Positions 16,103 to 53,201 of a stretch of 64,000 bases of DNA are shown here, in pieces. Below the pieces are notes generated by a model. The model saw nothing but the letters and a program-made list of their open reading frames with translations. It ran no database searches and had not been told where the DNA came from. The stretch is from an uncultured Clostridia bacterium (GTDB taxonomy: Bacteria; Bacillota; Clostridia; Oscillospirales; Oscillospiraceae). The position numbers were made by a program, and so were the translations under genes. Each line of letters starts with the position of its first letter. Positions within the stretch are counted from its first letter, which is position 1. The DNA is taken from positions 1-64,000 of the forward strand of contig CAMCRV010000004.1 in assembly GCA_945877365.1 (NCBI GenBank), in the 5' to 3' direction.

Positions 16103-16120
16103 GGCTGGGACAAACCAGTC

Positions 16121-16314
16121 CTTTTCCGTGGCAGAGCATGCGTATGGCACCTCTGCTGAACAAGACAACCGGGTGCAAACCCCGGACGGTACCGCCGCTG
16201 TATATGCTTGTGGTTCGCTCCTTCGGTGAAAGCCGGTCACTGGGGATTTTCCCCGGGAAGGCGGAGTGAGCCGGGGTCATCCCCGGGGCATGAGTCAGAA
16301 GACCTACGGAAAAG
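16121..16314 (+). promoter_or_regulatory. Cobalamin riboswitch
   Basis: P1 is formed by CTTTTCCGT (16121-16129) and ACGGAAAAG (16306-16314). Between them are the conserved AAGCCGGTCACTGG core (the GCCACTG-like element), GGGAAGGC, and the B12 box GAGTCAGAAGACCTAC (about 16292-16306). The aptamer should bind adenosylcobalamin or a related corrinoid and shut off the downstream uptake genes, acting with the terminator at 16368. Confidence 0.92.
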
Positions 16315-16367
16315 TCACTTCCCCGGGCTGCGTGATTACGGCCCGGTGCTTTGTCGCAGAAACACGG

Positions 16368-16417: not shown

Positions 16418-16819
16418 ATGAAAAACAAAAAGCAAATTCTCTGGGCCGGTATTCTGCTGGCGGCAATCCTTGTGCTGACAGGAATCTACGGCATTTACCG
16501 CGCCACCGCCGGCAAGGGTGACGCAGGCGGAAAGACCATCACCGTGCAGGTCATCCACAGCGACGGCACACAGAAGGACTTCACGGTGAACACCGAGGCT
16601 GAGTTCCTGGGTCAGGCGCTTCTGGAGGAAAACATCGCGGAAGGTACCGAAGGCCCCTACGGTCTGATGATCGAGGTAGTGGACGGTGAGGAGGCCATCT
16701 GGGAGAAGACCAAGAGCTATTGGGCATTGTACATCGGGCAGGATTACGCCTCCACCGGCGCGGATCAGACCCCCCTGCACGATGGGGACAGCTTTAAGCT
16801 GGAGTACACCCTTGGCTAA
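16418..16819 (+). CDS. DUF4430 protein, membrane-anchored, probable corrinoid-binding
   Basis: The 133-residue product has an N-terminal membrane anchor (residues 8-28, LWAGILLAAILVLTGIYGIY) and an external DUF4430 domain (TVQVIHSDGTQKDFTVNTEA, WALYIGQDYASTGADQTPL). DUF4430 is structurally related to the beta-domain of animal cobalamin-carrier proteins such as transcobalamin. Together with the upstream cobalamin riboswitch and downstream ECF component, this suggests an outer-face corrinoid capture protein. No lipobox is present. GGGAGG lies 7 nt before the ATG at 16418. The ligand itself is inferred from context. Confidence 0.88.
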   Translation: MKNKKQILWAGILLAAILVLTGIYGIYRATAGKGDAGGKTITVQVIHSDGTQKDFTVNTEAEFLGQALLEENIAEGTEGPYGLMIEVVDGEEAIWEKTKSYWALYIGQDYASTGADQTPLHDGDSFKLEYTLG

Positions 16820-17312
16820 AGGAAGAATTCGACAGCTGGCTCTGTTTGCCATTCTGGGTGCCCTGACCTTCGGGGCGAAATTTGCCATGAGCGGCCTGCC
16901 CAACATCGAGCCGGTTAGCCTGATGGTGATGCTCTTTGCGGTGGTGTTTGGCAAAAAGGCGGTGTATCCCATCGGGGTGTATATCGCCATGGAATTTCTG
17001 GTGTATGGCCCCGGACTGTGGAATCTGTGTTATCTGTACATCTGGTTCGTACTGGCGGCGGCGGCATATCTGCTGCGGAAAATGGAAAGTGCGCTGGGCT
17101 GGGCAGTGCTCTCCGGCGGCTTCGGGCTGGCCTTCGGGCTGCTGTGTGCCCCGGTGGATATGGTGGTAGGCGGCGCGGCCTATGCCCTGGGCAAGGTGAT
17201 CACCGGCATCCCCTTTGACATTGCCCACTGCGTGGGAAACTTTGTCATCGCCCTGACGCTGTTTTGCCCCCTGCGAAAGCGGATGGAGATGCTGGCGAGA
17301 AGGGGAATTTAA
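16812..17312 (+). CDS. ECF transporter S component, probable corrinoid-specific
   Basis: The 166-residue product has about five to six hydrophobic helices (LALFAILGALTFGAKFAMSG at the start, PIGVYIAMEFLVYGPGLWNL) and the length of an energy-coupling-factor substrate-specificity subunit. It would bind vitamin in the membrane and dock on a shared EcfA-EcfT module, not present here. I start at TTG 16812: GGAG lies 7 nt upstream and the start overlaps the DUF4430 stop by 8 bp; the longer ATG frame runs inside the upstream gene. Riboswitch control points to cobalamin or a precursor. Confidence 0.82.
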   Translation: MAKGRIRQLALFAILGALTFGAKFAMSGLPNIEPVSLMVMLFAVVFGKKAVYPIGVYIAMEFLVYGPGLWNLCYLYIWFVLAAAAYLLRKMESALGWAVLSGGFGLAFGLLCAPVDMVVGGAAYALGKVITGIPFDIAHCVGNFVIALTLFCPLRKRMEMLARRGI

Positions 17313-46988: not shown

Positions 46989-48023
46989 TCAGATAGAAAA
47001 CTGCCCCTGACAGGGGATGTGCAGGTGATCATAGGCCAGTGGTGTGACGCAGCGGCCCCGGGGAGTGCGGGTGAGAAAGCCCAGCTGCATCAGGTACGGC
47101 TCGTAGACATCCTCCAATGTCACCGCCTCCTCGCCGATGGTGGCGGCCAGGGTTTCCAGACCCACAGGGCCGCCGCCGTAGTTCTGGATGATGGCGGTGA
47201 GCATCCGGTGGTCGATGGTGTCCAGCCCCAGCTTGTCCACCTCCAGCCGTTTCAGTGCCAGATCGGCGGTTTCCCGGGTAATGGTGCCGTCCCCCATAAC
47301 CTCCGCAAAGTCTCGAACCCGGCGGAGAAACCGGTTGGCGATACGGGGAGTGCCCCGGCTCCGGGAGGCGATTTCCATGGCTCCCTCCGGGGCGATGGGC
47401 ATTCCCAAAATCGTGGCAGACCGGGTGACAATCCTTGCCAGCTCCTCCGGGGTGTACAGCTCCAGCCGCAGATTCACACCAAACCGATCCCGAAGGGGGG
47501 CGGACAGCTGTCCGGCTCTTGTGGTGGCGCCCACAAGGGTGAATTTGGGCAGGTCAAGGCGGATGGAGTTGGCGCTGGGGCCCTTGCCCACGATGATATC
47601 GATGGCAAAATCCTCCATGGCGGGGTAGAGAATTTCCTCCACCACCCGGTTCAGCCGGTGAATTTCGTCGATAAAGAGGATGTCCCCGGGGTTCAGGTTA
47701 GTGAGCAGCGCCGCCAGATCCCCGGGCTTTTCAATGGCCGGGCCGGAGGTGATGCGGATGTTCACCCCCATCTCGTTGGCGATGACACCGGCAAGGGTGG
47801 TTTTGCCCAGACCGGGAGGGCCGTAGAGCAGGGTATGATCCAGTGGCTCGTTCCGGCGGCGGGCGGCTTCAATATAGACGGACAGGTTTCCCTTGGCCTT
47901 CTCCTGCCCGGTGTAGTCCGACAGCAGCTTGGGGCGCAGGCCGATCTCCCCGGCGTCCTGGGGGGCGAAGGTGGGGGAGATGATGGGGGAAGTATCCAGA
48001 TCCGGGGAAAATTCTAAGCTCAT
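46989..48023 (-). CDS. ruvB: Holliday junction branch-migration motor RuvB
   Basis: The 344-residue product is Ruv[21 protein letters not shown], Walker [12 protein letters not shown], Walker [11 protein letters not shown], the sensor [18 protein letters not shown] and the C-terminal winged-helix region ending [15 protein letters not shown]. It is the AAA+ ring motor that, with RuvA, drives branch migration. GGAGGCAACT precedes the ATG. It lies 16 bp after ruvA. Confidence 0.98.
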
Positions 48024-48039: not shown

Positions 48040-48642
48040 TTAATTTTTCATCACCATGGCGCGCAGGGCGTGGCGCACCATTTCCTCGGTGGTGGCGTTG
48101 GGATCCACGCCCTTCAGGGCGGCGGAAATCTCGGCAGGGGTATAGCCCAGCTCCTGCAATGCGGCGTGTGCCAGGGCGGCGGCGTTGGTCTGGGCGGGGG
48201 CGGAAGGCGCAATGCCGGAGGAGAAATCCAACTCCGTGGTGCTGCCCCCCAGCTTGTCCTTCAGCTCCAGAATGATCCGCTGAGCGATCTTCTTGCCCAC
48301 TCCCTGCGCGGCGGTGAGCATTTTTTCATCCCCGGTCATCACCGCCAGGGTGAAATTCTGGGGGCCGCCGGAGGAGAGAATGGCCATGGCGGCCTTGGGG
48401 CCGACGCCGTTGACACTGGTGAGCAGGTCGAAGCAGCGCTGCTCCTCCCGGCTGGAAAAGCCGTACAGATCATAGGCATCCTCCCGGATGGATTCGGTGA
48501 TGTAGAGCCGGGCACTCTGGTTCAGCTTCAGCTGCCCGGCGGTATAGGCGGTGATGCGGCAGCCGTAGCCCACGCCGCCGCAGTCGATGACGGCAAGGCC
48601 CGGCTCCAGCACCGTGACAGAGCCGGATACATAGTAGAGCAT
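48040..48642 (-). CDS. ruvA: Holliday junction-binding protein RuvA
   Basis: The 200-residue product is RuvA: an N-terminal OB fold (MLYYVSGSVTVLEPGLAVID), two helix-hairpin-helix motifs (LTSVNGVGPKAAMAIL and LTAAQGVGKKIAQRIILELK), a flexible linker and the C-terminal three-helix domain that touches RuvB. GGAGGGAAACC precedes the ATG at 48642; the longer frame overlaps ruvC and was discarded. Confidence 0.97.
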   Translation of the reverse strand: MLYYVSGSVTVLEPGLAVIDCGGVGYGCRITAYTAGQLKLNQSARLYITESIREDAYDLYGFSSREEQRCFDLLTSVNGVGPKAAMAILSSGGPQNFTLAVMTGDEKMLTAAQGVGKKIAQRIILELKDKLGGSTTELDFSSGIAPSAPAQTNAAALAHAALQELGYTPAEISAALKGVDPNATTEEMVRHALRAMVMKN

Positions 48643-48659: not shown

Positions 48660-49157
48660 TTACTTCGCCTGGGCTTTTGCCAGCAGGCTGGTGGATGACC
48701 GGGCGTGACACAGGGCGATGGCCACGGCATCGGCGGCATCATCGGGCTTGGGCATGGCGGAAAGATGCAGAAGGCGTTTGGTCATGTCCTGCATCTGGTG
48801 CTTGGTGGCGTTTCCATAGCCCACCAGGGATTGCTTCACCTGCATGGGCTTATACTCAAACAGGGGAATCCCGGCCTGTGCCACAGCCAGCAGAATCACC
48901 CCTCTGGCCTCGGCGACATGGATGCCGGTGGTGACATTCTGCCCGAAGAACAGCTCTTCAATGGCCACGGCATCGGGCTGGGACACCTGAAGCAGCTGGG
49001 TCATGTCGTTGTAGATCACGGTGAGCCGCCAGGAAAAATCCGTGTTGGGAGGCGTGGTGATGGCGCCGCAGTTTACAAGACGGAACTGCCCGGCCTGAGC
49101 CTCCACCACCCCGAAGCCGGTGATGCCGTAGCCGGGGTCAATGCCAAGAATCCGCAT
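48660..49157 (-). CDS. ruvC: Holliday junction resolvase RuvC
   Basis: The 165-residue product is RuvC, which cuts Holliday junctions symmetrically. The catalytic acids are visible in RILGIDPGYG, AIEELFFGQN and KPDDAADAVA. Its ATG (49157) overlaps the stop of a small membrane-protein gene (TAATG), and it precedes ruvA by 17 bp, so ruvC-ruvA-ruvB are one operon. Confidence 0.97.
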   Translation of the reverse strand: MRILGIDPGYGITGFGVVEAQAGQFRLVNCGAITTPPNTDFSWRLTVIYNDMTQLLQVSQPDAVAIEELFFGQNVTTGIHVAEARGVILLAVAQAGIPLFEYKPMQVKQSLVGYGNATKHQMQDMTKRLLHLSAMPKPDDAADAVAIALCHARSSTSLLAKAQAK

Positions 49158-49309: not shown

Positions 49310-49371
49310 GGTTTTTTCACCTCGCTCTTTATAATAGCACATTTGTTTTTGTTTTCCTAGAGGAAAAGGAA

Positions 49372-49545
49372 AATTAATTGATAGTTGACAGTGGACAGTT
49401 GACAGTTAAGGTGTCCCTTCGGGACAATTTTTCATTCTATCCCCGAAGGGGATACCACAACTGTCAACTTTCAACTGTAAACTGTCAACTAAATAACAAT
49501 TTGTACTGTTCCGGATGACAACCTATTTCACTCCTAACTCCTAAT
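49372..49545. repeat. Family A palindromic repeat upstream of the dehydrogenase-like gene
   Basis: TTGATAGTTGACAGTGGACA and the inverse CTGTCAACTTTCAACTGTAA enclose GTCCCTTCGGGAC and CCCCGAAGGGG. A second short motif, CTCCTAACTCCTAATTCCCA, runs up to the start codon of the next gene. Confidence 0.8.
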
Positions 49546-49555
49546 TCCCAACTGC

Positions 49556-50674
49556 ATGAAATCCCCCCTTGTGGAGATACTACTGCCGAGAGGGGGCGGC
49601 GGCGTGGAGCGGTTCGGGATGGGCACGGAAGTGATCTCCGGGGAAGGGAGCCTTTCGGTACTGTCCCGGTGGGAAGGGGAGGGGCTGCTGCTGGTGAGCA
49701 CACAGGGGGACGGGAAGGTGCAGAAGGCAGTGCAGGCGGCGCGCTGGGGCAAAATCTGCCGGCTTGAGGTTTTCGGCGAGCCCGCCCTGTCCCGTGTTAT
49801 GGAGGGGGTGCAGCTGCTGAAACAGGAGGACTGCACCGTGGTGGTGGGGCTGGGAGACGGGAGAATTCTGGACTGCGCCAAGGCCATCCGGGGATTTTCC
49901 CAGAAGGCTGCTGCCCTCATCACCATCCCCACGGCGCCGGGCTGCGGCAGGGAGGTTACGGCGGAGGCAAGGCTCCTGCATCGGGGGCAGTATCACCGGT
50001 TTGCCCACGAGAGCCTTCAGCCCACGGCTACGGTGCTGGACAGCACCCTGCTGGGGGATTTGCCCAGAGGAAGCCGGGGTGAGGGCGGCTTCTGCCTGCT
50101 GGCGCAGGCGTTGGAGAGCTTCTCCCACCGGGAGGCAGGGGAGCTTTGCAGACTCTTCGCCCGGGAGGGGTTTTCCGCCTGCTGGGGGGCGCTGCCCGGC
50201 TTCTGGGGCGGCAGAGCGGGGATGGAGGGAAGGGTGCAGATGGCCTCGGTTCTCGCGGGCTTTGCCAGAAGCTGCACCGGAGGCGGACTGTGTCAGGCGT
50301 TGGCAGAGGCGGTGGGAGCCGCCGTGCACCGGGACCCGGAGCCCCTGACGGGGATATTTCTGCCGGGGGTAATCCGCTGCAACCTCCACGCTGCCCAGCG
50401 GCAGTATGCCCAGCTGGCCAGAGCCGCCGGGATGGGAGGCAGCAGCGACAGCATCTCCGGGGAGAATCTGCTGAAGGGGGTCATCCGGCTGCGCCGGGAG
50501 CTGGGGCTGCCTCAGTCTCTGGCTCAGGCCGGGATCTCCCCGGGGACGGTGTGGAGCAGCAGCCGGGAGATTCTGGGGCAGGTGCTGTCCGCCCCGGGAT
50601 GCCGGACAAATCCGGTGGCGGTGGATGACTATCTGCTGCGGCGGCTGCTGGAGGAGGTAACAGGAAGGAAGTAG
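49556..50674 (+). CDS. EutG-like iron-alcohol-dehydrogenase homologue lacking its metal ligands
   Basis: The 372-residue product aligns along its length with the EutG branch of iron-dependent alcohol dehydrogenases. The nucleotide-binding GLGDGRILDCAKAI and the HESLQPTATVLD segment are recognisable. The four iron ligands are not: the Asp-His of the GMDVLTHALE motif become Cys180 and Gln184, the His of the following SHSMAH motif is Gln247 and the His of PHG is Pro261. The frame is open and intact, so it is best read as a pseudoenzyme. The start has no ribosome site and abuts a repeat. The EutN/CcmL-like gene follows after 10 bp. Confidence 0.8.
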   Translation: MKSPLVEILLPRGGGGVERFGMGTEVISGEGSLSVLSRWEGEGLLLVSTQGDGKVQKAVQAARWGKICRLEVFGEPALSRVMEGVQLLKQEDCTVVVGLGDGRILDCAKAIRGFSQKAAALITIPTAPGCGREVTAEARLLHRGQYHRFAHESLQPTATVLDSTLLGDLPRGSRGEGGFCLLAQALESFSHREAGELCRLFAREGFSACWGALPGFWGGRAGMEGRVQMASVLAGFARSCTGGGLCQALAEAVGAAVHRDPEPLTGIFLPGVIRCNLHAAQRQYAQLARAAGMGGSSDSISGENLLKGVIRLRRELGLPQSLAQAGISPGTVWSSSREILGQVLSAPGCRTNPVAVDDYLLRRLLEEVTGRK

Positions 50675-50684
50675 GAGGAAAGCT

Positions 50685-50930
50685 ATGAAGCTGGCAATGG
50701 TTGCAAAGACGCTGGTACCCTGCCGGGCTGCGGCGGCGCTGGGGGAAAAGCCCCTGCTGCTGCTGCGCTCCGGGCAGGAGGAGCTGGCGGCGGTGGATCT
50801 GGTGGGAGCGGCTCAGGGGGACTGGGTGCTGGCGGTCACCGGCTGCGCCGGGGCGAAATTCGCCATGGATACCGCCGCGGATGCGGTGGTGGTGGCGGTG
50901 ATTCCGGAAGACAGTGGGATTGGGTGTTGA
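50685..50930 (+). CDS. EutN/CcmL-type microcompartment vertex protein
   Basis: The 81-residue product matches the EutN/CcmL (BMC-P) fold: KLAMVAKTLVPCRAA at the start, a strand with LLLLRSGQEELAAVDLVGAAQGDWVLAV, then AVVVAVIPED. Pentamers of this protein cap the vertices of bacterial microcompartments. No hexameric shell protein or other microcompartment enzyme is present nearby. GGAGGAAAGCT precedes the ATG. The promoter of the metG leader overlaps its stop codon. Confidence 0.85.
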   Translation: MKLAMVAKTLVPCRAAAALGEKPLLLLRSGQEELAAVDLVGAAQGDWVLAVTGCAGAKFAMDTAADAVVVAVIPEDSGIGC

Positions 50931-51220
50931 CAAAGTGCGCTGTTTCACGCTATAATAACCGGGATACAGGAAAAAGCTGTGAAAAGAAGAGTAGGCTTGG
51001 TTCCGCCGGTCAGAGAGCCCCGGGCGCTGGGAAGGGGTACGGCAGGGAAAGCCGAACATGGTCTTGGAGCTGGGAGTTCCGATACAGTAGGCTCTCCCCG
51101 GGCTGCCCCGTTACAGGCGTTTGAGGCGCGGATTTCGTCCCTGCGAAGCTCCGCGTGAAGCAAGGTGGTACCGCGTCAATTTTTGTCGCCCTTGGGAGTT
51201 TCCCGGGGCGTCTTTTTATT
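50927..51220 (+). promoter_or_regulatory. Methionine T-box leader of metG, with promoter
   Basis: TTGACA (50927-50932) and TATAAT (50951-50956) are 18 bp apart; the -35 box overlaps the stop of the preceding gene. The leader has AAGAGTA, AGAGAG and the pattern GAAC-ATG followed by TTGGAGCT, giving a specifier codon ATG (51058-51060) for methionine. The T-box AAGGTGGTACCGCG lies at 51162-51175, with UGGU pairing with the tRNA end, and a terminator hairpin at about 51187-51216 precedes TCTTTTTATTTT. Uncharged tRNA-Met should stabilise the antiterminator and turn on metG. Confidence 0.93.
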
Positions 51221-51245: not shown

Positions 51246-53201
51246 ATGTGCGAAAAGTGCAAGGGTAATTATTATATTACCACCCCCATCTATTATCCCT
51301 CGGCAAAGCTCCATATCGGTCACGCCTACTGCACCGTGGCCACCGATGCCATGGCCCGGTTCAAGCGGCTGCAGGGCTACCATGTAAAGTTCCTCACCGG
51401 CACCGACGAGCACGGTCAGAAAATCGAGGACAAGGCTAAGGCCGCCGGAGTCACTCCCCAGCAGTTTGTGGATGACATCGTTCTGGGCGAGCGTGGTGTG
51501 CTGGATCTGTGGAAGCTGATGAACATCTCCTATGACCGGTTCATCCGCACCACCGACGACTACCATGTGGAGGCCATCCAGAAGATCTTCAAGAGGATGT
51601 ACGACAACGGCGACATCTACAAGGGCAAGTATGTGGGCAAATACTGCAAGCCCTGCGAGTCCTTCTGGACGGATGCTCAGCTGGTGGACGGCAAGTGCCC
51701 CGACTGCGGCGGCGAGGTTCAGGAGGCCGAGGAGGAGGCCTACTTCTTCCGGCTCAGCAAGTACGCTGACCGGGTGCAGGATCTGCTGGAGAACACCGAT
51801 TTTCTGGAGCCCCGGAGCCGGGTCTCCGAGATGGTGAACAACTTCATCAAGCCCGGCCTGGAGGATCTTTGCGTCTCCCGTACCAGCTTCACCTGGGGCG
51901 TGCCGGTGGACTTCGACCCCGGCCATGTGGTGTATGTGTGGATTGACGCTCTGTTCAACTACATGACGGCTCTGGGCTTTGAAAACGACAAATACCACGA
52001 TCTGGAGGACTTCTGGCCTGCGGATGTCCACTTCATCGGCAAGGAAATTGTCCGGTTCCACTCCATCATCTGGCCTGCCATGCTGATGAGCCTGAACCTG
52101 CCCCTGCCCAAGAAGGTATTTGGTCACGGCTGGCTGCTGCTGGACGGCGGCAAGATGAGCAAGTCCAAGGGCAATGTGGTGGATCCCTACATTCTGGCGG
52201 AGCGGTTCGGCGTGGATGCCCTGCGGTTCTTCCTGCTGCGCTCCTTCCCCTTCGGCTCCGACGGCAACTTCTCCAATGAGCTGCTGATCAACACCATCAA
52301 TGTGGATCTGGCCAACGATCTGGGCAATCTGGTGTCCCGTACCGTTGCCATGGCGCTGAAATACTTCGGCGAGGCTCTGCCTGCCCAGCAGCAGGAGAAT
52401 CCCGAACTGGATGCCGAGCTGCTGGCCATGGCCTCCGGCCTTCGGGATAGATATGAGGAGCAGATGGAGAAGTTTGCCTTCCAGAATGCGCTGGCGGAAA
52501 TCTTCAAGGTCATCTCCCGAGCCAACAAGTATATCGATGAGAACGCCCCCTGGGTGCTGGCCAAGGAGGAGGAAAACAAGCCCCGGCTGGCACGGGTGCT
52601 GTACAACCTGCTGGAGACGGTGCGGATCTGCGCAGGCCTGCTGACCCCCTTCATGCCTGACACCGCGGCAGAGATTTCCCGGCGGCTGGGCGGTGCACCC
52701 ATGGACTGGGACAGCCTGAACAAATTCGGCGTGCTGCCTGCGGATGTGGCTGCGGTTTCCGGCCCGGCTCTGTTCCCCAGAATCGACATGGAGAAGGAGC
52801 TGGCGGCTCTGGAGGAGCTGTCCAAGCCCAAGTCCACCATCGAAATCGAGCCTTACACCGAAGAAAGCGTGGATTTCGACACCTTCTGCAAGAATGAACT
52901 CCGGGCGGTAAAGGTGAAATCCTGCGAGAATGTGAAAAAGAGCGACAAGCTGCTGTGCTTCACTCTGGACGACGGCACCGGCACCGACCGGCAGATTCTC
53001 TCCGGCATTGCCAAGTTCTACAAGCCGGAGGAGCTGGTGGGCAAGACTCTGGTGGCCATCACCAACCTGCCCCCCAGAAAGATGATGGGCAAGCCCTCCT
53101 GCGGTATGCTCCTCAGCGCCGTCCACAAGGACAAGGGGGAGGAAAAGCTCCAGCTGATTATGCTGGATGACAGCATCCCTGCAGGCGCAAAGCTGTGTTA
53201 A
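51246..53201 (+). CDS. metG: Methionyl-tRNA synthetase
   Basis: The 651-residue product is MetRS. It has the class I HIGH motif (LHIGHAYCTV), the zinc-binding cysteines in CKPCES and CPDCGG, LDGGKMSKSKGNVV (KMSKS), an anticodon-binding helical domain and a C-terminal tRNA-binding OB domain (VKVKSCENVKKSDKLLCF) of about 100 residues. It charges tRNA-Met. AGGAGGATTATTTT precedes the ATG. Controlled by the T-box leader upstream. Confidence 0.98.
   Translation: MCEKCKGNYYITTPIYYPSAKLHIGHAYCTVATDAMARFKRLQGYHVKFLTGTDEHGQKIEDKAKAAGVTPQQFVDDIVLGERGVLDLWKLMNISYDRFIRTTDDYHVEAIQKIFKRMYDNGDIYKGKYVGKYCKPCESFWTDAQLVDGKCPDCGGEVQEAEEEAYFFRLSKYADRVQDLLENTDFLEPRSRVSEMVNNFIKPGLEDLCVSRTSFTWGVPVDFDPGHVVYVWIDALFNYMTALGFENDKYHDLEDFWPADVHFIGKEIVRFHSIIWPAMLMSLNLPLPKKVFGHGWLLLDGGKMSKSKGNVVDPYILAERFGVDALRFFLLRSFPFGSDGNFSNELLINTINVDLANDLGNLVSRTVAMALKYFGEALPAQQQENPELDAELLAMASGLRDRYEEQMEKFAFQNALAEIFKVISRANKYIDENAPWVLAKEEENKPRLARVLYNLLETVRICAGLLTPFMPDTAAEISRRLGGAPMDWDSLNKFGVLPADVAAVSGPALFPRIDMEKELAALEELSKPKSTIEIEPYTEESVDFDTFCKNELRAVKVKSCENVKKSDKLLCFTLDDGTGTDRQILSGIAKFYKPEELVGKTLVAITNLPPRKMMGKPSCGMLLSAVHKDKGEEKLQLIMLDDSIPAGAKLC

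Follow-up and report, generated by a model that had tools for sequence, protein, structure and literature searches.

The window, a stretch of 64,000 nucleotides from an uncultured Clostridia bacterium (GCA_945877365.1, contig CAMCRV010000004.1, positions 1 to 64,000), carries only two genes between ruvC and the T-box leader of metG, one for a protein resembling Fe-ADHs (ADH-like) and one for a vertex protein of the EutN/CcmL type (Table 1). Both frames are open and separated by 10 bp, in agreement with the preliminary description of this DNA, which had reported an intact dehydrogenase-like frame and a vertex gene ten bases 3′ of it. In Pfam searches, the ADH-like protein scored 61.1 bits with PF00465 (cut-off 31.3) and 47.4 bits with PF25137 (cut-off 27), as expected for the Fe-ADH family, and EutN scored 38.4 bits with PF03319 (cut-off 25), as expected for the EutN/CcmL family. 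The sequence-nearest solved relatives are AdhE/MDH/FucO-type ADHs for the former and CsoS4A-type proteins for the latter. The EutG fold signature claimed earlier stands as far as the Fe-ADH family is concerned, but it is not specific to EutG by profile, as NCBIfam profiles gave 85 bits for ErcA, 81 for AdhE and 78 for EutG, all well short of their cut-offs (556 for the EutG equivalog NF011998). Synteny, on the other hand, identifies the ADH-like protein as the ADH that belongs to the eut operon of the genus itself.

Table 1. Coordinates of the ADH-like/EutN pair and of other features of the window.
Feature	Position	Strand	Remarks
Cobalamin riboswitch	16109..16326		RF00174
Frame downstream of the riboswitch	16686..17312		208 aa
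ruvB	46989..48023	-	left flank
ruvA	48040..48642	-	left flank
ruvC	48660..49157	-	left flank
Imperfect palindrome	49371..49502		about 130 bp
ADH-like gene	49556..50674	+	putative Fe-ADH pseudoenzyme, 372 codons; C180, Q184, Q247 and P261 in ligand columns, plus E251; GDGR for GGGS
EutN/CcmL-type (BMC-P) vertex protein gene	50685..50930	+	81 aa; sole PF03319 gene found in the genome
Promoter-like site TTGACA-18-TATAAT	50927..50956	+	12/12 match; overlaps the EutN stop codon
T-box leader of metG	50970..51196	+	Rfam RF00230, 95.5 bits; right border of the ancestral eut operon
metG	51246..53201	+	syntenic right flank

The ADH-like gene probably starts at GTG 49604 (356 aa) rather than at ATG 49556, since many relatives begin with MERF, which aligns with V17, and since residues 1-15 nearly all have a pLDDT under 50 in the structural model. 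The promoter-like site at the end of EutN presumably serves metG. Just 5′ of the ADH-like gene lies the imperfect palindrome, with 44-nt arms that are 82% complementary, which resembles a small mobile element or an attenuator. Searches of the whole assembly (a 97% complete genome) found no PF00936 hexamer gene and no PF06751 (EutB) gene, and EutN of the window was the one PF03319 gene, so that the absence of hexamer and core enzyme genes, described before for the neighbourhood, holds across the assembly. The same genome, devoid of EutB, carries the cobalamin riboswitch listed in Table 1, followed by a frame that appears by eye to encode a membrane-like protein.

Origin and distribution of the pair

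Gene order in relatives was compared in 33 fetched congener loci chosen by us, each with a eut core, for which three or more of EutB, C, L, E and M were required. The operon is flanked by metG in 25 of them, by ruv genes beyond the ADH in 10, by both in 8 and by neither in six, and where both flanks are present the ADH sits at the ruv end. Three loci, L152 (G302), L155 (G316) and L172 (G390), read ruvBAC on the reverse strand, ADH, eutA, then eutB/C/L/M/T/E in variable order, followed by a PduL-like gene, a gene for a 152-aa protein, EutN, EutH and metG. These gene names are our own assignments from gene order and family features; the PF00936 and PF06751 searches confirmed hexamers and EutB in controls. 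The ruv flank is not universal, since 13 metG-bearing full-operon loci have no ruv gene within the 3.3-5.2 kb fetched beyond the ADH. The operon and metG are apart in G279, G308, G195, G354 and G333.

In the window, all genes between the ADH and EutN are missing, and so is EutH, with the ruv and metG flanks both present, and the loci of G412 (L229) and G349 (L143) are arranged in the same way. Because the intervening genes and EutH are gone and both flanks are kept, the ADH-EutN pair is what remained when a eut operon for an ethanolamine microcompartment collapsed at its original site between ruvC and metG. The alternative offered in the preliminary description, a remnant of a lost eut-type cluster, is thus correct with regard to origin, as relatives have the full operon at the same place, but the pair is not plainly decaying. 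Some relatives do have a complete operon whose ADH retains its ligands, a finding that had been named as evidence against a non-catalytic role; they support this ancestry but do not refute a present function. One internal deletion would favour the survival of exactly these two genes, since the ADH is first and EutN often late in the operon, and what needs explaining is their retention under selection.

Other stages and outcomes are visible at related loci. In G310 (L156, 5110-11000) the eut operon is in the midst of decay, with fragments of eutC, eutT, eutB and eutH and an ADH with all ligands. In G135 (L033, 3403-5697) the former operon site between ruvC and metG holds a gene whose 657-aa product shows, by eye, two zinc-ribbon-like starts, and EutN stands alone beside metG; the pairwise omega between the EutN of G341 and that of G135 is 0.17.

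A search of 136 species genomes of the genus with the window ADH, the window EutN and PF00936 found hexamers in 101 of them and the bare pair, defined by coordinates that leave no space for another gene, in at least 11. These are the species of the window (G000), G345, G381, G412, G349 and the six of clade B (G331, G319, G334, G358, G427 and G428). A conserved pair without other shell genes, which had been proposed as a check, is therefore present in at least 11 species, whose genomes all lack hexamer genes. EutB (PF06751) is likewise absent from all 11 and from the four EutN-only genomes tested, and was found in 4/4 controls, in G310 as a fragment only. The flanks differ somewhat: in G345 and G381 metG, but not ruv, lies beside the pair, and the clade B loci have kept ruv. 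In five loci (G135, G341, G340, G338 and G324) EutN occurs near metG without an adjoining ADH, the best ADH matches in these genomes being weak (1e-20 or worse), so the two genes are not strictly coupled; G340 has hexamer genes elsewhere in its genome. Outside the genus, no such pair was seen among 37 loci of the family (L036-L072), which are part of the places listed.

In regard to the number of origins, a supermatrix ML tree of 31 species (quick search, 12 of the 31 rows under half filled) rejected (p-AU 3e-5) a topology that unites the eight sampled pair species in a single clade. One group (SH-aLRT 100) comprised clade B, G349 and G322; neither ADH nor EutN was found in G322. The clade A species (G000, G345, G381 and G412) stood together on a branch with a support of only 76, and were dispersed among full-operon species in an earlier FastTree species tree. 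In the ADH gene tree (mixture model, fewer rows, without G349), clade A and its metagenomic relatives grouped at 100/96 and clade B joined them weakly (77/81), while a FastTree ADH gene tree placed all altered copies in one clade (0.983), in which long branches may attract. With a single pair-species clade rejected by the species tree, the pair state would have arisen either twice or once with subsequent transfer across the locus, and both fit. The species-tree neighbours G345 (C52, L133) and G381 (C20, L134) have MetG proteins that are 95% identical and pseudo-ADHs that are only 57% identical and belong to separate sublineages in the ADH tree, suggesting that species have exchanged the pair.

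Metal ligands, NAD motif and fold

The ADH-like protein was aligned with its homologs, 120 of 572 of which were listed. Among these 120, the four ligand columns read D/H/H/H in 100, and the same 100 share a further conserved His column, where the window has E251; the ligand roles follow PMC5125639, and D196 and H200 are named as ligands in PMC12926040, both as excerpted. The Cys, Gln, Gln and Pro that had been noticed at the four iron-ligand sites from the sequence are borne out by this alignment. At least three of the four ligands were lost in 20 of the 120 listed homologs, in 17 distinct five-column patterns, and the metagenomic near-copies P0001-P0003 (98, 89 and 89% identity) have the same five residues as the window, CQQEP. 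P0001 represents a cluster of 176 member sequences.

Within the genus, D/H/H/H, the ligand set of an active Fe-ADH or EutG, was found in all 100 non-pair eut-type ADHs examined, and the window protein lacks it. No ligand is left in G000, G412 and G349, one His (column 247) is left in G345 and G381, and one His (column 184) in clade B, the altered columns varying among lineages with no shared new residue. The GGGS motif, which binds the NAD pyrophosphate (PMC5125639, excerpt), is present in 99 of the 100 catalytic copies, the remaining one being gapped there, and in 0/11 pair copies.

The state of the ligands goes together with the presence of a shell. Copies that keep no more than one ligand out of four were counted as altered, and the classification covered 111 of the 112 eut-type ADHs found, all but that of G418. 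Intact ligands occurred with a hexamer in the genome in 98 copies and without one in two (G314 and G348, from genomes 84% and 73% complete), and altered ligands without a hexamer in 11, exactly the pair species, and with a hexamer in none. In other words, every altered ADH examined in the genus is in a hexamer-less genome and 98 of the 100 intact ones are in a hexamer-bearing genome; the association is given without a p-value because species are not independent.

The 100 catalytic copies have 105 columns with 95% conservation. Each of the five lineages compared (G000, G345, G381, G412 and G331) has lost the same 18 of these, including S103 of GGGS, D180, H251, H261, R263 and N265. All five retain 39, among them K109 and E133, and 23 of the 39 are Gly, Pro or Leu. 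The ADH of G349 is short, retains only 46 of the 105 and is possibly in decay. EutN has changed as well: 32 EutN proteins from operons share 52 conserved columns, and 15 of these are lost in all five pair lineages. The AlphaFold2 single-chain model of the ADH-like protein has a pLDDT of 89.7 and a pTM of 0.89, and Foldseek aligned it with Fe-ADHs (AdhE/MDH/FucO) at TMq values up to 0.87, including 3bfj (DhaT) and 8zwd (MDH). The protein thus has a dismantled active site and, in the predicted structure, a retained fold.

Selection on the two genes

Selection was estimated with a purpose-written codon model of the GY94 type (F3x4). In the six species of clade B, the altered ADH has an omega of 0.023 (95% range about 0.014-0.036; 2dlnL 423 relative to omega = 1) and EutN one of 0.18 (about 0.11-0.30; 41), compared to 0.033 for RuvA and 0.026 for RuvC (6 species), 0.008 for RuvB (4 species) and 0.11 for a neighbouring lipoprotein-like gene (5 species). 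NG86 counts are 0.01-0.11 for the ADH and 0.24-0.70 for EutN, the latter above the ML fit. Variable sites of the clade B ADH fall on codon positions 1/2/3 as 18/9/95, and the antisense reading has an omega of 3.1, so it is the sense protein that selection preserves. An antisense frame of 438 codons does extend across the whole ADH-EutN pair in two clade B loci (L135, 6106-7422; L138, 6947-8263); as a constrained gene it is ruled out by the same antisense value, obtained for its ADH part. These results show purifying selection on the altered ADH in clade B and rule out simple decay there; dN/dS near 1, put forward in the preliminary description as the mark of decay, was not seen for this gene in the clade. 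As EutN in clade B is about eight times less constrained and occurs alone in five loci, the more important of the two may be the ADH-like protein. Retention of EutN merely for the sake of the metG promoter that overlaps its stop codon is unlikely, since the clade B loci L135-L138 have no metG beyond EutN in the fetched stretch, yet their EutN is under the constraint given above.

In the lineage of the window, distances are saturated, and the values from the branch model (11 species) have to be read accordingly. On the G000 branch omega of the ADH is 0.15, with omega = 1 rejected (2dlnL 46.6, at saturated sites), and that of EutN is 0.21, with omega = 1 not rejected (2dlnL 3.0); for the ADH, the remaining pseudo branches of clade A have an omega of 0.28 and catalytic branches one of 0.115. 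Pairwise ML estimates within clade A were degenerate at saturation, several lying at the bounds, and were set aside, and the NG86 pairwise values for the ADH (0.28-0.67) are likewise saturated. Neutral simulation to 46% identity gave about 7.8 expected stops in frame and no stop-free run among 60, whereas at 89% identity 23% of 200 runs were stop-free, so the near-copies alone prove little about selection. However, where the window protein and its near-copies differ from each other, conserved columns are spared (11/116 versus 46/240, p 0.02, taken together; by pair, p 0.0004 for G000-P0003, 0.08 for G000-P0002 and 0.12 for P0002-P0003). The GC3 of the ADH-like gene is 0.81, the same as that of metG. 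Purifying selection on the ADH-like protein is therefore probable in the species of the window. The earlier suggestion of selection for something other than catalysis holds up in clade B, and on the branch of the window it does so within the limits set by saturation.

These data also bear on the alternative that survives best, namely that the pair is a slowly decaying remnant of a large internal deletion, with constraint relaxed in the lineage of the window and no selected function there. The gene order predicts just these survivors, the G310 operon has been caught decaying, omega in clade A is raised as relaxed constraint would have it, the pseudo-ADHs of clade A evolve fast, as G345 and G381 illustrate, and the ADH of G349 is degraded. 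Nevertheless, the strong constraint in clade B, the rejection of omega = 1 on the branch of the window, the frame that is free of stops at 46% identity, the sparing of conserved columns and a GC3 matching metG all speak against it, and we regard such a remnant as unlikely.

Proposed role and comparison with known systems

The reading that we prefer, with a probability of roughly 0.55, is that a non-catalytic Fe-ADH scaffold or regulator was retained after the in-place loss of the eut organelle, with EutN as its likely partner. According to this model, once the eut operon between ruvC and metG had lost the shell hexamers, EutB/C and its other enzymes, the ADH dropped the metal site and the NAD pyrophosphate loop and kept its fold. 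Selection would since have preserved the ADH-fold protein for a scaffolding or regulatory task that needs no catalysis, and the EutN-type protein, unable to form a shell alone, would most likely partner the ADH-fold oligomer, e.g., as a five-fold cap. The loss of catalysis, the partnership with EutN and the scaffold role are what we infer in this model. A bolder version, in which at least two gut lineages independently built a shell-less assembly with a structural or regulatory role, where EutN pentamers cap a catalytically inactive oligomer of the Fe-ADH (perhaps a D5 decamer) by virtue of their common five-fold symmetry, is speculative and would have to be called improbable at present.

The pair offers a tractable natural case of organelle loss that left two parts, with strong selection acting on one of them or on both, and it raises the question whether a BMC vertex protein can have a partner other than hexamers. 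Binding between the two would point to a contact between a cargo ADH and the vertex protein; EutG has been proposed to enter by piggybacking on other cargo (PMC12487888, in excerpt). No description of such a pair was found in listings of the open-licence literature on orphan EutN, on microcompartment or Fe-ADH pseudoenzymes, or on eut gene loss, and in PMC4207490 the word "pseudoenzyme" appears solely in a reference title.

Two further alternatives keep the Fe-ADH fold at work in another way. The ADH-like protein could be regulatory, perhaps through binding AdhE, with EutN as an unrelated bystander; its counterpart would be the Pseudomonas protein ErcA, which is related to Fe-ADHs and takes part in the control of alcohol metabolism. 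ErcA is the best NCBIfam match of the ADH-like protein, the genome contains a frame of AdhE size (915 aa) that matches the window ADH, and the top structural matches of the model are AdhE ADH domains; yet its score of 85.4 bits is far short of the NF041833 cut-off of 550, and ErcA, to which the regulatory role belongs, adjoins a hybrid histidine kinase (PMC12997753, excerpt), whereas no kinase gene adjoins the ADH-like gene and only the pair lies between ruvC and the T-box, which makes this quite doubtful. Least probable is a metal-independent enzyme with another NAD(P)H-dependent reaction, comparable to the maleylacetate reductases (MARs), which have the Fe-ADH fold and are active without a metal site (excerpt of PMC5125639), since, despite K109 and E133 being retained in all five lineages, the MAR signature, LHHKLCHTLGG (PMC5741723, excerpt; the Lys is essential), is replaced in the window by LCQALAEAVGA (245-255, lined up by eye), in which the three His have become C, Q and E, none of the five lineages has the Lys, A248 standing at that place in all five, GGGS is gone from every pair copy, and the ligand columns changed differently in each lineage.

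As for the scaffold or regulator that we favour, one close counterpart is the Fe-ADH of eut operons (EutG, PF00465), which it resembles in fold, in family and in descent as the first gene of the relatives' eut operon, and from which it differs in the absence of the four ligands and of GGGS and in a genome without EutB or hexamer. The EutN of the window is a member of the vertex proteins EutN/CcmL/CsoS4A (BMC-P, PF03319), scoring above the cut-off, but these proteins sit in shells of PF00936 hexamers, which the genome of the window does not encode. The locus also resembles the satellite BMC loci of Axen et al. 2014 (PMC4207490), which have a PF03319 gene without a PF00936 gene at the locus. However, a satellite locus is defined there (excerpt) by another BMC locus in the genome, and with no PF00936 gene in the genome of the window this category does not apply. 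Finally, DhaT and the MDH of Bacillus methanolicus share the homologous fold and form pentamers of dimers (PMC5125639, excerpt), decamers whose five-fold symmetry would suit a EutN pentamer, although they are active metal enzymes and the window protein is known from a single-chain model. As EutN is pentameric in solution, and hexameric in crystals (PMC12487888, excerpt), a symmetry-matched ADH-EutN complex without a shell is possible by analogy. The ADH-like protein would best be described as an enzyme turned pseudoenzyme, unusual in keeping an orphan vertex protein alongside.
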